Below are positions 9,336 to 54,886 of a stretch of 64,000 nt of DNA, in pieces; the stretch's first letter is position 1; each line of letters opens with the position of its first letter. This DNA comes from Natrinema versiforme (GTDB lineage Archaea; Halobacteriota; Halobacteria; Halobacteriales; Natrialbaceae). Under the pieces are notes generated by a model. That model made no database searches, was not told the origin of the DNA, and saw only the letters and a program-made list of their open reading frames with translations. The translations under genes were made by a program, and so were the position numbers. The DNA is taken from positions 2,914,001 through 2,978,000 of the forward strand of contig NZ_CP040330.1 of the NCBI RefSeq assembly GCF_005576615.1, read 5' to 3'.

Positions 9336-10429
9336 CGCTCCGGTCCGGTGTCGGCCGCGGACGCAGCATCGGACTCGGCCTCTGTCGCCGCTCGCTCGGA
9401 CGCCGGCTCCGTCCCGGATGCGGCCGTCGTCGCCCCGCCGTCGGCGCGCAACTCCTGTCCGAGCGCGTCCGCGAGGTCGTACTCGGTGCCCGTCAGGATG
9501 TAGAGCACGTCCTCGAGGGGCTCGAGGACTTCGGGGAGGATGCGGACGACGAGGTAGGTGATCCCCAGCAGGGCGACGATCGACAGCGACTGGGCGATGA
9601 AGTTGTGGGCGACGATGTAGGACGTGCGGTCGGCGGGGGCACCCATGAATTCCGTGACGACGTAGACGAGGGCGTCCTGCTGGAACCAGCCCCACGGCGA
9701 GGCGAGCCCGATGAAGACGTTCCGGACGAGGTTGAGGAACCAGATGACGCCGATCGCGAGCGCGAAGGCGGTCGCCTTCCGCTCGAGCGGCGCTTTGACG
9801 GCGGCGATGAGGCCGCCGAAGATGGCCATGCTCCCGATACCGGTACAGGCCGTGATGATGTAGGTGGTCCGGCCGGTCACCGTCTCGTTCGGATCGAAGT
9901 CGAACTTACTCACGTAGCCGTTGCTCCCCTCCGTAAGCCCGGGACTGTGACCGAGCAGTTCCATCCCGAAGTGGGTCTGAGACGCGGTCGTCTCGATCAG
10001 CCACGTGCGAACGACCGGAATCGTCTCGACCGGCAGGTAGATCAGCCCCATGATCGCGACCGCTTTCGAGAGCAACAGGAGCGACTCGCGACCCCGAAAG
10101 AGCAGATACCCGGTATAGACACACAGCGGCAGCGCCGCTATCGTTAACAGGGTCTCGATCGGGCTCTTGACCTCGAGATAGTAGTGGGGGGTGAGCGTGA
10201 CCCAGAAGACGCCGAAGACGACCCACGCGCCCGCAGCGAGGTACCGCGCCGGATCGACAGCATCGAGCCACTCGAGGACCATCGCGGTCACGAACGCGCC
10301 GATCGCGAGCCACGCGAGCGCGTCCGACAGGGTGATCGAGCCGATACTCGCGAAGAGAGGCGTCGCGGGTCCCGCCGCGACGTCGACGACTGCGTCGGGA
10401 ATCGCGGTCGTCGCTGGTAGGGCCGGCAT
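9332..10429 (-). CDS. artA: Archaeosortase A
   Basis: This is a polytopic membrane transpeptidase-like enzyme of the exosortase/archaeosortase family. It removes the C-terminal PGF-CTERM signal of surface proteins and couples this to lipid anchoring. The 365 residues contain about eight hydrophobic segments, the catalytic cysteine in TACTGIGS (Cys195) and the conserved arginine in FLNLVRNVFIG (Arg236). Arg268 and His275 follow in DRTSYIVAHN, and by spacing His275 would take the third active-site position. The last 45 residues are a hydrophilic acidic tail. GTG at 10435 is an alternative start two codons upstream. A matching PGF-CTERM substrate is encoded at 52852-53613. Confidence 0.95.
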   Translation of the reverse strand: MPALPATTAIPDAVVDVAAGPATPLFASIGSITLSDALAWLAIGAFVTAMVLEWLDAVDPARYLAAGAWVVFGVFWVTLTPHYYLEVKSPIETLLTIAALPLCVYTGYLLFRGRESLLLLSKAVAIMGLIYLPVETIPVVRTWLIETTASQTHFGMELLGHSPGLTEGSNGYVSKFDFDPNETVTGRTTYIITACTGIGSMAIFGGLIAAVKAPLERKATAFALAIGVIWFLNLVRNVFIGLASPWGWFQQDALVYVVTEFMGAPADRTSYIVAHNFIAQSLSIVALLGITYLVVRILPEVLEPLEDVLYILTGTEYDLADALGQELRADGGATTAASGTEPASERAATEAESDAASAADTGPER

Positions 10430-41690: not shown

Positions 41691-42476
41691 TTAGCGGCGG
41701 CCATCACGACCGGCCGAAAGGCAGTAGACCGCGAGCGCGACGGCCACGAGAGCGATCTCGAGCGTAAATCCGGAGACCGGCTCGCCACCGTCGGTTTCGG
41801 CCGCGTCGTCCCCGCTCGAGGCCGCGGGCTCGCGGTCGATCTCGTCGGGATCGGGGTGGTCGAACGCCTCGAGCGACTCGTCGCCGCCGTCGATCGCGAC
41901 CGTCACGGGCTCGTCGACGACGGCGGACGGGTAGTCGCCGGTGAGTTCGATGTCGCTCTCGTCGAACGAGATCGGCGTCGTCCCGGCCGGTGCGTCATCG
42001 GCGACGCGGACGGTCAGCGTCGCGATCGTTCCCGTTCCGGTCGTTCCGCCGGCGGCAGGCTCGCGGCGCTGCTCGAGGATCGTCGTTCCCCGCTCGCGAG
42101 CGTCCGTTTCCGTCGCGCGGATTTCGGTCCCGTCGCCCTCGAGCCACGGCCCGCGCTCGATATCGGTGATCTCGAGGTAGTCGGGGTGATACTGGGCGAT
42201 CAGTGCCACGGCGGCGACGCCCTCGTCGCCGTGACCGCCCTGACTCCGGAGGGAGACATCGATCTCGATCGTCTCGCCGGGCGCGGCCTCGACCTGTGTC
42301 TGCTCGGGCGAGAGGATCGCGACCTGATCGATCGCGGCGGCCGGCCCCGCGACGATCGGGATCGTCAGCGAGAGGGCGAGGACGACGGCAATCAGGCAGG
42401 CGACGACGCGGTCGCTATCGGGTCCTATGCCGTCGGTCCGACGGTCGCCGTCACGCGCGGCGTCAGTTCGCGACAC
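41691..42476 (-). CDS. Cohesin-domain surface protein with SGF variant C-terminal sorting tail
   Basis: This is a protein of about 261 residues with a signal peptide (RVVACLIAVVLALSLTIPIV then AGPAAA). A cohesin-like beta domain follows at about residues 55-200 (VEAAPGETIEIDVSLRSQGG, YHPDYLEITDIERGPWL, GTIATLTVRVADDAPAGTTP). An acidic linker precedes the tail VSGFTLEIALVAVALAVYCL with basic residues GRDGRR. The tail has the PGF-CTERM layout but Ser-Gly-Phe instead of Pro-Gly-Phe. The GTG at 42476 is the preferred start; a TTG at 42578 is possible and no ATG is available. Confidence 0.8.
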   Translation of the reverse strand: MSRTDAARDGDRRTDGIGPDSDRVVACLIAVVLALSLTIPIVAGPAAAIDQVAILSPEQTQVEAAPGETIEIDVSLRSQGGHGDEGVAAVALIAQYHPDYLEITDIERGPWLEGDGTEIRATETDARERGTTILEQRREPAAGGTTGTGTIATLTVRVADDAPAGTTPISFDESDIELTGDYPSAVVDEPVTVAIDGGDESLEAFDHPDPDEIDREPAASSGDDAAETDGGEPVSGFTLEIALVAVALAVYCLSAGRDGRR

Positions 42477-42623
42477 GTCTGCCCGTAGGGACGGGAACGA
42501 ACTTACCGTTTGGTGATCCGGGTGAAAAGACGAACCGATGCGGACGCGGGCGATCGGACGAATCAGTGGGTCGGACAAACGAAACTCGGTCGAACGGGCG
42601 GTCGGCCGGACCCGAGGTGGCGA

Positions 42624-50180: not shown

Positions 50181-52847
50181 ATGGTCGAATTTACGAGGCG
50201 AAAGCTGATAGCATCGTCAGCGGCAGCGGCAATCGGCACGGGGGCAGTCGGCCTCGCGGGGGCAGAGGAGGACCCGGAGGAACACGACACGCTCGAGGCA
50301 CCCCACGTCAAGGGGAACATCGATCGGTTCTCGACGACGGCGCTCGGCGCCGAAGTAACGGGACCGTTCGTCTTCGAGACCGGGGAACTCCTCTACAGTC
50401 TTCAGGGACCCCGTAACGACAACATCGAGCCGTTCGACACGGGCGGAGTCGGCGTCTTCGACGATTTCCAGTTCACGTTCAACGGGGCGAACGACGAGTT
50501 CGACGAGCTCGAGGCACCGCGGACCGACCGCGAGGAGAAACAGGTCCTCTCGGCGGCCGGCGAGTACCGGTTGCTCGTCCAGACGGGCGACGAGATCAAC
50601 GGCGGGACCGAGCGGTTCGGCCATCCCCAGACGCCCGACGGGACGGAACTCGTCGAGATCTGCGAAGACGAGTACGAGGGGATCGGCGAACAGGCCGACA
50701 TGAACTTCTTCGTCTCGACGAACGAGGAAGGGACGGAGGGCTACCTCTTTACCAACAACGAGATCCGGCCGGGCGGGATCACGCGAACGCCCCTCTACCG
50801 CGACGAGGACGGCTACTGGCAGGCCGACCTCGAGAACGCGATGGAACTCGAGAACACCGAGCCGTTCCGCGATATCGGCGGGACGAAGACCAACTGTTAC
50901 GGCGATCTGAGTCCGTGGGAGACGCCGCTGTCGGCCGAAGAGGAATACGGTCACCCGCGAGTCAACGGGCTCGCGACGGTCAGCGACATCGTCGACCAGG
51001 GCAGCGGCGTCGGCCTCCGCGGTGGCAGCGAGTTCTGGAACCGGCCCAACATCCTCGAGGTCGAGGCCTCGCTCCAGGAGATCTTCGGCGACGAGACCGC
51101 GTACCCGATGGGGCTGCACAATAACCGCAACACCGAGAAATTGGCCTATCACCTCGGCGTCGACCCGGTCGATCAGGCCGAGGAGGAAGCCGAAGACGGG
51201 GACGGTCTCAAGACCGTGAACACGCCCGATCCCATCGGCGACGAGGAGTTCCCGAACCGCTACCGCTACGGGAAGATCGTCGAGATCACCGCGCCGACGG
51301 CCGAGGTCCCGACGCCCGTCAAGCACCACGTTTTCGGTCGCGCCGCGTGGGAGTGTCCCGAAGTGTTGCCCGACGAGCGGACGGTCTATCTGGCCTCCGA
51401 CGGCGGCGCGAAGGGGATCTACAAGTTCGTCGCCGAGGAGCCGATTCCGGAGTACGACACCCGGATGGACGTCCGCGGCACGCTGTACGCCATGAAGGCT
51501 GCCGAGATCGGCGAGGGACCGGTCGCGGAAACCGACCTCGAGATCGAGTGGCTGGAACTCGGGACAGCGAGCAACGCCGAGATCGAGTCCTGGATCGCCG
51601 ACTACGACGATGTCACGCAGGTCGACTACCTCGAGACCCACGCCGAGACCGACTGGGAGGACGACCTCGAGACCGCACTGGCGGAAGCAGACGAGGAAGT
51701 CGCGATCAACGGCAATCAGGACTACATCACCGACGAGGAGATCGTCGAGTGGGCCGCACAGTACGAGGAACGCGGCCCCGACGGCGTCGACGAGGAACTT
51801 CGCCGCGTCCCCTTCCTCGAGACCCGAGCGGCCGCCAAGGAGATCGGTGCCAGCGTCGAGTTCAACAAGGCCGAGGGGATCGACGCCCACGACGAGGCCG
51901 AACCCGGCGACTTCATCTACTTCGGCATCTCCTCGCTCGGCGGCTCCATGGCCGACGAGCACGGCGATATCCGATTCGACGAGGTCCAGTCCGGCGTCCT
52001 CTACCGGGCCGAACTGCAGGACGACTACGATGTCTCTCGACTCGAGCCGGTCGTCGTCGGTCCGAACGGGAGCGACTCCAAGTCGGTGCTCGACCAGTCG
52101 CTCATCAACGTCGACAACGTGATGGTCATGGACGACGGTCGAGTCCTCCTCTGTGAGGACAAGAGTCCCTTCGGACGGGAACGGACGTACAGAAACGACG
52201 CGCTGTGGGTCTACGAGCCCCCGACGTCGCTGTCCGTCGACTCCGTCGCGGTCAGCCACGGCGGCACCGGCACCGCCGACCTAACGCTCTCGTCGGTCCC
52301 CGACGGGCTCGCAGGCGGCCGCGTCACCGTCTCGATCGAGCACGCCGAGGTCGCCGAAATCACGGGCGCGAGCTACCACGACGCGATCGAACTCACCGCC
52401 GATCCGACGATCAGCGACGACGGCTCGAGCGTCGAGTTCCAGTTCGCCGACCTCGAAAACGCGATCGAGTCGGGCTCGATGGACGTCACGCTGGCGTCGC
52501 TCGAACTCGAAGGGACCGGCACTGGGACGACGGATATCACGGTCGAGATTCACGCCCTGGACGACGACGACGGGAACGCGATCGACTCCCGATCGCACAC
52601 CGGTGTCGTGGTTACCGGACCGCCGGCAGTCGGCGGACCCGGCAGTGGCCGGAACCCGACGGACCCCGACGGCGACGGGAAATTCGAGGACGTCAACGGC
52701 AACGGCCGACTGGACTACGACGACGTGGTCCTGCTGTTCGATCACATCGAGGACGAGTCGGTCACCCTCAACGCCGACGCCTACGACTTCAACGAGAACG
52801 GCCGCATCGACTACAACGACGTCACCGAACTCTACGACGAGACCTGA
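50181..52847 (+). CDS. Tat-secreted PhoX-like (DUF839) protein with cohesin-like and dockerin domains
   Basis: This 888-residue secreted protein has a Tat signal (FTRRKLIASSAAAAIGTGAV). Residues about 60-670 match the DUF839/PhoX beta-propeller phosphatase family (AWECPEVLPDERTVYLASDG near 390, YFGISSLGGSMADEHGDIRF near 580, VDNVMVMDDGRVLLCEDKSP near 645). Residues about 683-812 form a cohesin-like beta domain (DGLAGGRVTVSIEHAEVAEI). Residues 828-888 are a dockerin type-I-like module with paired calcium loops DVNGNGRLDYDD and DFNENGRIDYND, and an extra DPDGDGKFED loop. There is no membrane anchor. It probably hydrolyses phosphate esters outside the cell, dependent on calcium. Confidence 0.88.
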   Translation: MVEFTRRKLIASSAAAAIGTGAVGLAGAEEDPEEHDTLEAPHVKGNIDRFSTTALGAEVTGPFVFETGELLYSLQGPRNDNIEPFDTGGVGVFDDFQFTFNGANDEFDELEAPRTDREEKQVLSAAGEYRLLVQTGDEINGGTERFGHPQTPDGTELVEICEDEYEGIGEQADMNFFVSTNEEGTEGYLFTNNEIRPGGITRTPLYRDEDGYWQADLENAMELENTEPFRDIGGTKTNCYGDLSPWETPLSAEEEYGHPRVNGLATVSDIVDQGSGVGLRGGSEFWNRPNILEVEASLQEIFGDETAYPMGLHNNRNTEKLAYHLGVDPVDQAEEEAEDGDGLKTVNTPDPIGDEEFPNRYRYGKIVEITAPTAEVPTPVKHHVFGRAAWECPEVLPDERTVYLASDGGAKGIYKFVAEEPIPEYDTRMDVRGTLYAMKAAEIGEGPVAETDLEIEWLELGTASNAEIESWIADYDDVTQVDYLETHAETDWEDDLETALAEADEEVAINGNQDYITDEEIVEWAAQYEERGPDGVDEELRRVPFLETRAAAKEIGASVEFNKAEGIDAHDEAEPGDFIYFGISSLGGSMADEHGDIRFDEVQSGVLYRAELQDDYDVSRLEPVVVGPNGSDSKSVLDQSLINVDNVMVMDDGRVLLCEDKSPFGRERTYRNDALWVYEPPTSLSVDSVAVSHGGTGTADLTLSSVPDGLAGGRVTVSIEHAEVAEITGASYHDAIELTADPTISDDGSSVEFQFADLENAIESGSMDVTLASLELEGTGTGTTDITVEIHALDDDDGNAIDSRSHTGVVVTGPPAVGGPGSGRNPTDPDGDGKFEDVNGNGRLDYDDVVLLFDHIEDESVTLNADAYDFNENGRIDYNDVTELYDET

Positions 52848-52851
52848 GCCG

Positions 52852-53613
52852 ATGGCACGGCACGACGCCGATCCGTCAGTCAACGAGACGGGCCAGGGAC
52901 GCACACCGACGGACGAATCGAATCGGGACGCGGCACCTTCGCGACGGTGGAAACAGCCCGTCGCGGCGCTCCTCGTCGCACTTGCGATCGGCGTGGCGAT
53001 CGTCCCGATCGCTTCGATGGCGACAGCCGGTACGGGCACTGCGACCGCGACGCCGACGGCGGCCGGACCCGACCTCGTCGTCGACGACGCGGCCGTCGAA
53101 TCGGGCGAGACGGCGACCCACCGGCTCGCGCTCACCGACGCGCCGGACGGGCTCGCCGGGTTCGAACTCACCGTCGAACTGTCAGGCGACGGCGACACCG
53201 CGACCGTCGCGAACGCCAGCTACCCCGACCAGTACGGTCCGACGACCGACCCGGTGGTAAGCGCCGACGGCCGGTCGGTCACCCTCGAGGCCGTCGACCT
53301 CACCGACGAGGTAACCCCCGGCGCGAGCGACGTGACGCTCGCGACGGTCGAGGTGAACGGAACCGACACCGGGTCGACGGCGCTCGAGGTGACGGAGCTA
53401 CAGATCGACGCGGACGGCGGCGACCGCATCGAACCGTCGCTCGAGGCGGGGACGCTCACCGTCGACGGCGGGTCGGCGTCACAGAACGAGACCGGCGACT
53501 CGGACGACGGGACGGGATCCGACGGCTTGGACTCGGTCCCCGGCTTCACGGGCGGCGCCGCGGTCGCTGTGATCGCCGCCCTCGCAGTCGCCCTGCTGGC
53601 GCGCTCGCGCTGA
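52852..53613 (+). CDS. Cohesin-domain surface protein with PGF-CTERM anchor
   Basis: This 253-residue protein has a signal-like helix at about 36-57 (PVAALLVALAIGVAIVPIAS) and a cohesin-like domain at about 72-205 (GETATHRLALTDAPDGLAGF, VTLATVEVNGTDTGS). An acidic linker follows, and at 230 a PGF-CTERM tail (PGFTGGAAVAVIAALAVALL, then ARSR). The tail marks it as a substrate of archaeosortase A, encoded at 9332-10429. It starts 4 bases after the PhoX-dockerin gene and shares its DGLAG cohesin motif, so it is the probable anchor for the dockerin of that protein. Confidence 0.9.
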   Translation: MARHDADPSVNETGQGRTPTDESNRDAAPSRRWKQPVAALLVALAIGVAIVPIASMATAGTGTATATPTAAGPDLVVDDAAVESGETATHRLALTDAPDGLAGFELTVELSGDGDTATVANASYPDQYGPTTDPVVSADGRSVTLEAVDLTDEVTPGASDVTLATVEVNGTDTGSTALEVTELQIDADGGDRIEPSLEAGTLTVDGGSASQNETGDSDDGTGSDGLDSVPGFTGGAAVAVIAALAVALLARSR

Positions 53614-53872: not shown

Positions 53873-54886
53873 ATGATCGATATCCTCACCTTGCTCGCGC
53901 TCGCCGCCGTCGGAACGGCGGTCGTCTGGAAGGGCAGCGACTGGCTCGAGGAGTCGGCGAACGCGCTCGCCGCCGCGTACGGGCTCCCGCTGGTCGTCCA
54001 AGGAGCGATCGTCGCCGCCGTGGGCTCGAGCACCCCCGAACTGGCGAGCGTGTTGCTCGCGACGGTGCTCCACGGCGAGTTCGAACTGGGCGTCGGCTCC
54101 ATCGTCGGCTCGGCGGTGTTCAACCTTCTCGTAATCCCGGGGCTCGCGATCCTCGTCGGCGGCGGGATCGACACGACGCGCGAACTGGTCTACAAGGAGT
54201 CGCTGTTCTACATGCTCGCGGTCGCCGCGTTGCTGCTGACGTTCTCGCTCGCGGTCATCTACAACCCCGTCGAGAGCGCCGACGGCCTCATCAGGGGGGC
54301 CGTCTCGAGGCCGCTCGCGCTGTTTCCCCTCGCGCTGTACGGGCTCTACCTGTTCACCCAGTACCTCGATGCCGCGGCGAGCGACGAGCCGAACGACGAG
54401 TCGATCGCTCTCGTCCGGACGTGGCTCCGGTTCGTGCTCGGACTGGTGCTCATCGTCGTCGGCGTCGAGGGGCTCGTCCGGGCCGCGATCGGGCTCGGGG
54501 ACGCGTTCGGCACGCCGTCGTTCCTCTGGGGGATGACCGTCGTGGCGGCCGGCTCGAGCCTGCCCGACGCGTTCGTCAGTCTCGCGGCGGCGCGGGCCGA
54601 TCGACCGACGGTCACGCTGGCGAACGTCCTCGGGAGCAACACGTTCGACCTGCTCGTCGCCGTCCCCATCGGCGTCCTCGTGAAGGGATCGCTGACGATC
54701 AACTTCGCGTACATCGTCCCGATGATGGGGTTTCTGGTCTTTGCGACGATTACGTTCTTCGCGATTTCGCGGACCGGGATGTACCTCTCCCGTCGGGAAG
54801 CGTGGGCGCTACTGGTGACCTACGGATTGTTCGTCGTGTGGCTCGTCCTCGAGAGTCTGCGGGTCGTCAGCGTGCTCGGCCTCTGA
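53873..54886 (+). CDS. Sodium/calcium exchanger family antiporter
   Basis: This 337-residue CaCA-family membrane protein has two homologous halves. Each carries an ion-binding alpha repeat: VAAVGSSTPELASVLLATVL in the first half (about residues 44-63) and VVAAGSSLPDAFVSLAAARA in the second (about 223-242). About ten hydrophobic helices are visible. It probably exports Ca2+ in exchange for Na+; the cytoplasmic loop between the halves is short and acidic. Confidence 0.92.
   Translation: MIDILTLLALAAVGTAVVWKGSDWLEESANALAAAYGLPLVVQGAIVAAVGSSTPELASVLLATVLHGEFELGVGSIVGSAVFNLLVIPGLAILVGGGIDTTRELVYKESLFYMLAVAALLLTFSLAVIYNPVESADGLIRGAVSRPLALFPLALYGLYLFTQYLDAAASDEPNDESIALVRTWLRFVLGLVLIVVGVEGLVRAAIGLGDAFGTPSFLWGMTVVAAGSSLPDAFVSLAAARADRPTVTLANVLGSNTFDLLVAVPIGVLVKGSLTINFAYIVPMMGFLVFATITFFAISRTGMYLSRREAWALLVTYGLFVVWLVLESLRVVSVLGL

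Follow-up and report, generated by a model that had tools for sequence, protein, structure and literature searches.

The window analysed here (64,000 nucleotides of Natrinema versiforme contig NZ_CP040330.1, positions 2,914,001 to 2,978,000) contains two adjacent forward-strand genes: gene 1 encodes a secreted PhoX-family protein with a C-terminal cohesin and dockerin, and gene 2 encodes a single-cohesin protein with a membrane-anchoring tail. Judging from sequence, the secreted enzyme probably docks in trans on the co-expressed, membrane-anchored cohesin. We regard this as the likeliest mechanism because the two genes are linked and because the anchor cohesin and a tyrosine in the first calcium loop of the dockerin have been lost jointly.

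Gene 1 (50181..52847, + strand) is an open frame of 888 residues with a match to Pfam PF05787 and 47 relatives of the same architecture. Its twin-arginine signal (FTRRKLIASS..., residues 1-28; 50181..50264, +) lacks a lipobox cysteine, and the arginine pair is aligned in the relatives. The PhoX domain, residues 221-663 (50841..52169, +), matches PF05787 with an E-value of 8e-23 (81.8 bits against a cut-off of 24) in a Pfam profile search, and profile comparison with PDB entries 4amf/3zwu gave an E-value of 7e-10. The Cys239 motif, NCYGDLSPWETPLSAEE, aligns with NCANGKTPWGTYLTCEE of Pseudomonas fluorescens PhoX, the structure of which has been solved; the active-site comparison covers this motif only, so the label 'phosphatase' rests on family membership. 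Residues near 37-83 of gene 1 align with residues 507-554 of the solved PhoX, in its C-terminal part, as if circularly permuted. The PhoX-cohesin-dockerin enzymes have no C-terminal anchor, their highest mean hydropathy over 18 residues being 0.69. The preliminary description of gene 1 as a Tat-type PhoX protein with a cohesin and a dockerin, and without an anchor, is thus borne out, and the coordinates, reading frames and four-base gap that it gave for the two genes are all correct.

The dockerin occupies residues 828-888 (52662..52844, +) and scores on either side of the PF00404 cut-off of 22.9 bits, with 21.5 bits in an hmmscan of the protein and 25.8 bits in the genome search. The two calcium loops that had been proposed from the sequence are both complete. 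Loop 1 (residues 837-848, DVNGNGRLDYDD; 52689..52724, +) carries the ligands D837, N839, N841, D845 and D848, and loop 2, placed by alignment (residues 869-880, DFNENGRIDYND; 52785..52820, +), carries D869, N871, N873, D877 and D880. The resulting pattern D1 N3 N5 D9 D12 is kept in 21 relatives. Position 10 of loop 1, which is Tyr846 in the window, is one of the positions through which type I dockerins are known to contact their cohesins.

Gene 2 (52852..53613, +) begins four bases past the stop codon of gene 1 and encodes 253 residues in an open frame, with an N-terminal hydrophobic signal at approximately residues 37-60. Its C-terminal tail, VPGFTGGAAVAVIAALAVALLARSR (53536..53610, +), had been read as a PGF-CTERM anchor. 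The features behind that reading are clear by eye (VPGF, a hydrophobic stretch and a basic end), but no PGF-CTERM model matched gene 2 at E-values up to 1. A C-terminal hydrophobic segment is present in 41 of 42 gene 2 orthologues and a PGF-like motif in 22 of them, the others having a plain hydrophobic end; membrane tethering therefore appears to be the conserved property of these partners, while processing by archaeosortase is not universal. The likely processing enzyme, archaeosortase A, is encoded outside the operon and, as previously noted, within the window (9473..10318, -; TIGR04125, E-value 1e-97). Just 3' of the pair lies a sodium/calcium antiporter gene (window positions 53873-54886, +); the dockerin and PhoX are both calcium proteins.

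The enzyme-borne cohesin spans residues 683-812 of gene 1 (52227..52616, +) and the anchor cohesin residues 72-206 of gene 2 (53065..53469, +). The two share 40% identity (E-value 1e-19) and are homologues. In single-sequence searches neither matched the Pfam cohesin family PF00963 or the PDB, though PF00963 is matched by six of 46 anchor-cohesin orthologues (best E-value 4e-4). Profile-profile comparison with Pfam-recognised haloarchaeal cohesins using hhalign gave a probability of 95% and an E-value of 5e-8. AlphaFold models built from natural alignments reached a pLDDT of 92.1 for the enzyme-borne domain and 94.7 (pTM 0.87) for the anchor domain. When each model was compared with solved structures using Foldseek, all 50 of the 50 matches listed were cohesin entries (best E-values 7e-10 and 2e-9, respectively), including the Archaeoglobus fulgidus cohesin 2xdh, which superimposes on the anchor model with a TM-score of 0.79. 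Despite the absent single-sequence match, the hhalign result and the predicted models together establish the cohesin beta-sandwich fold for both domains. The suggestion of cohesin-like domains in both genes was therefore correct, although the profile match expected for them came from profile-profile comparison and not from Pfam. In a tree of 115 cohesins, computed from few alignment columns, the PhoX-borne cohesins and nine other enzyme-borne cohesins form one supported group (57 rows, support 96) apart from the anchor cohesins. The enzyme-borne cohesin thus looks like a separate, conserved class, and because the two classes group apart, the two cohesin roles look old.

The gene pair is kept together well beyond the window; the regular separation in homologous loci that the preliminary description had named as a refutation was not observed. 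A PhoX-cohesin-dockerin protein is present in 18 of 61 related genomes, and a small cohesin gene adjoins it in all 18; the reading frame is broken in two of these PhoX genes and in one cohesin gene. Of the 29 genomes of the genus, 17 contain the dockerin form of PhoX, eight contain a short PhoX without the modules (58% identity to the dockerin form), and none contains both. The gene 2-type partner is absent from all eight short-PhoX genomes, in which the sole cohesin match (in genome G003) is a 671-residue protein encoded elsewhere in the genome. A search across GTDB species returned 79 loci, 47 of which are PhoX-cohesin-dockerin loci, spanning genera from Natrinema and Natrialba to Haloarcula, Halorientalis, Haloplanus and Halorubrum. 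The anchored cohesin gene lies directly downstream in 42 of these 47, with gaps of -4 to 137 bases; the short PhoX forms without the modules have none there. Across 116 genomes sampled evenly from the order, 18 encode a PhoX-cohesin-dockerin protein, with an adjacent cohesin in 16.

The five PhoX proteins without a neighbouring cohesin, from Halegenticoccus, Halocatena and Halalkalicoccus, form one clade, and no other cohesin of the family was found in the four of their genomes that were searched. Loop-1 position 10 is tyrosine in all 42 paired PhoX proteins, and R, H, G, G or D in the five exceptions. Two partner-less Halalkalicoccus-type genomes of the even sample have D at this position, one of them probably being a genome already counted. 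The loss of the partner and of the loop-1 tyrosine represents one loss event followed by divergence, and as evidence it is strong in direction, not in number.

The clade that lost gene 2 nevertheless retains both cohesin and dockerin, with calcium loop 2 intact. Its members would be accommodated if the dockerin paired chiefly with the cohesin of its own or of a sister molecule, so that the enzyme formed secreted chains or closed on itself, with gene 2 as a minor cap or terminus. The two modules are separated by a short linker within one chain and could pair within a molecule or between enzymes, and the pTM of 0.77 for the model does not fix their relative placement. We consider such self-pairing unlikely as the main arrangement, given that gene 2 adjoins the enzyme gene at 42 of 47 loci and that loop 1 decays once gene 2 is gone, though it is compatible with anchoring, and both may occur. 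Since the window cohesins diverge in sequence from known cohesins, one could also suppose that the modules no longer bind and are carried as spacers or calcium-stabilised ends. This is very improbable, as every calcium ligand is conserved across many genera, and so is the loop-1 tyrosine, which is replaced only in the absence of the partner. Least credible of all as the dockerin's real partner is a third, single cohesin overlooked in the preliminary description (41691-42578, -): it exceeds the Pfam cut-off (PF00963, E-value 1e-8), is the sole Pfam-recognised cohesin of the genome and has a C-terminal hydrophobic segment, but it adjoins HerA- and NurA-domain genes rather than dockerin genes, and was rejected because every one of the 29 genomes of the genus has it, including nine with no dockerin match in either search.

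We therefore return to docking in trans on the gene 2 cohesin, for which the following sequence of events is proposed (conditional on the binding itself). The PhoX-family enzyme would be exported in folded form via the Tat route. The co-expressed gene 2 protein would likewise be exported, its C-terminal tail retaining the cohesin on the membrane. This tail is of the PGF type in Natrinema and its nearest relatives, where it is probably processed by archaeosortase A, while in several other genera a plain hydrophobic segment would serve as the membrane hold. The calcium-folded dockerin of the enzyme would then bind the gene 2 cohesin in trans. Because of this proposed binding, the putative phosphatase would stay on the cell and the phosphate that it frees would be released close to uptake systems. 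The enzyme's own cohesin may take the dockerin of a further enzyme; self-assembly through this cohesin had been raised as a possibility in the preliminary description.

The cohesin-dockerin class of the PhoX pair is also found on other cargo. It is fused to PhoD at six loci (L167; L169, with 81% identity to L167; L172; L175; L177; and L178, which is the same as L116), to a GDPD protein with its own adjacent cohesin (L168), to a 5'-nucleotidase (L176), to SNase-domain proteins with an adjacent cohesin (L173, L189 and L185), and to choice-of-anchor I proteins (L153 and L164), the L153 gene lying near the phosphonate transporter genes phnC/phnE. Nine other-cargo loci have no adjacent cohesin; eight of these nine, from seven of eight genomes, come from organisms in which the PhoX pair is present as well, and the remaining locus is on a contig end. 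At the even-sample base rate of 16/116 the chance of such co-occurrence is approximately 7e-6, a figure that ignores kinship. Dockerins of PhoX and of the other cargo in the same genome rank 1, 4, 9, 22, 3, 2, 22, 7 and 13 of 47 in similarity, which is only suggestive. The co-occurrence of other-cargo loci lacking their own adjacent cohesin with the PhoX pair suggests a surface complex for phosphorus scavenging. As a tentative extension, in which we place rather less than even confidence, PhoX, PhoD, GDPD, 5'-nucleotidase, SNase and choice-of-anchor I proteins might all use a single cohesin-dockerin class, bind to a single anchored cohesin and chain via their own cohesins, forming a haloarchaeal phosphorus-scavenging complex separate in specificity from the glycoside-hydrolase systems of the same organisms.

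Other cohesin and dockerin clusters were observed during the searches. The chromosome of Halovivax sp. KZCA124 contains a cellulosome-like gene cluster at approximately 1612000-1650000 (L210, L211), encoding a 2096-residue GH5 protein with 10 cohesins, a PGF-tailed single cohesin of 261 residues, and eight or more proteins with terminal dockerins (GH5, GH10, GH81 and others). In genome G013 (C3:138500-173000; L117, L118), genes for GH5, GH10 and rhamnogalacturonan lyase proteins, mostly with C-terminal dockerins, cluster with those for an anchored single cohesin and an 811-residue protein combining three cohesin-like domains with fn3, CBM5/12 and PKD domains. Haladaptatus sp. DYF46 encodes a 544-residue protein that combines three cohesins with a single dockerin, amid several dockerin proteins (L213:12140-13774 and flanks; also L187). 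Clustered dockerin matches also occur in G010, G011, G015, G027 and G028, and the small G039 genome (2.7 Mb, same order) has 56 dockerin matches and few Pfam-recognised cohesins.

The PhoX pair shares with the type I system of the bacterial cellulosome its cohesin and dockerin folds and the principle of an anchored receptor for secreted enzymes. It differs in having neither a multi-cohesin scaffoldin nor glycoside hydrolases: the search of the N. versiforme genome found one dockerin match and three single cohesins, with no multi-cohesin scaffoldin or dockerin-bearing glycoside hydrolase. The pair is not a cellulosome. Archaea of the ANME groups encode many dockerin and cohesin proteins, the role of which is unclear in the available text of Chadwick 2022 (PMC9012536), where surface attachment is proposed. 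These proteins resemble the PhoX pair in being archaeal, non-cellulolytic and possibly concerned with surface attachment, and differ in that, according to the same text, their cargo is mainly substrate-binding and S-layer proteins and scaffoldin-like proteins with up to five cohesins are present; archaeal scaffoldins are there either absent or limited to that number. In those parts of the literature that were available (PMC9012536 among them), what cohesin-dockerin pairs do outside cellulosomes is given as unknown. A conserved operon of phosphatase and anchor offers a concrete, testable role for such non-cellulosomal pairs in surface nutrient scavenging. The host organisms are culturable and in part genetically tractable, and the system could yield small, salt-tolerant coupling modules.

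Closer in layout are haloarchaeal pairs with subtilase, metallophosphoesterase or beta-helix cargo (L102, L103, L104, L105 and L106), in which a secreted protein that has a dockerin at or near its C terminus is encoded beside a single-cohesin or PGF-type protein. The neighbours at L103 and L106 had no Pfam cohesin match. Like gene 1 with its added cohesin, the dockerin proteins of L102 and L105 also carry a Pfam cohesin; all five pairs differ from the PhoX pair in cargo and in dockerin contact residues.

The closest precedent for the layout is the AF2375/AF2376 pair of A. fulgidus, a cohesin-dockerin system reportedly treated by Bayer in 1999 and by Voronov-Goldman in 2011. In the available text of PMC9705933, strong and specific binding is reported between the dockerin, residues 432-506 of ORF2375, and the cohesin, residues 29-162 of ORF2376. 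That text gives the same arrangement as in the PhoX pair, with adjacent ORFs, the C-terminal dockerin first and then a single cohesin after a signal; the two systems also share the cohesin fold (TM-score 0.79 for 2xdh) and a non-cellulosomal archaeal host. They differ in that the same text reports no phosphatase and describes one species, whereas the PhoX pair is found in many haloarchaeal genera. A literature search, with most subscription papers outside its scope, returned no description of a phosphatase-linked cohesin-dockerin pair. The pair had been called unusual, which holds for its phosphatase cargo but not for its arrangement, given the measured precedent in Archaeoglobus and the haloarchaeal pairs with other cargo. 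What is new relative to Archaeoglobus is the cargo, PhoX and other enzymes, and the scale over the haloarchaea.
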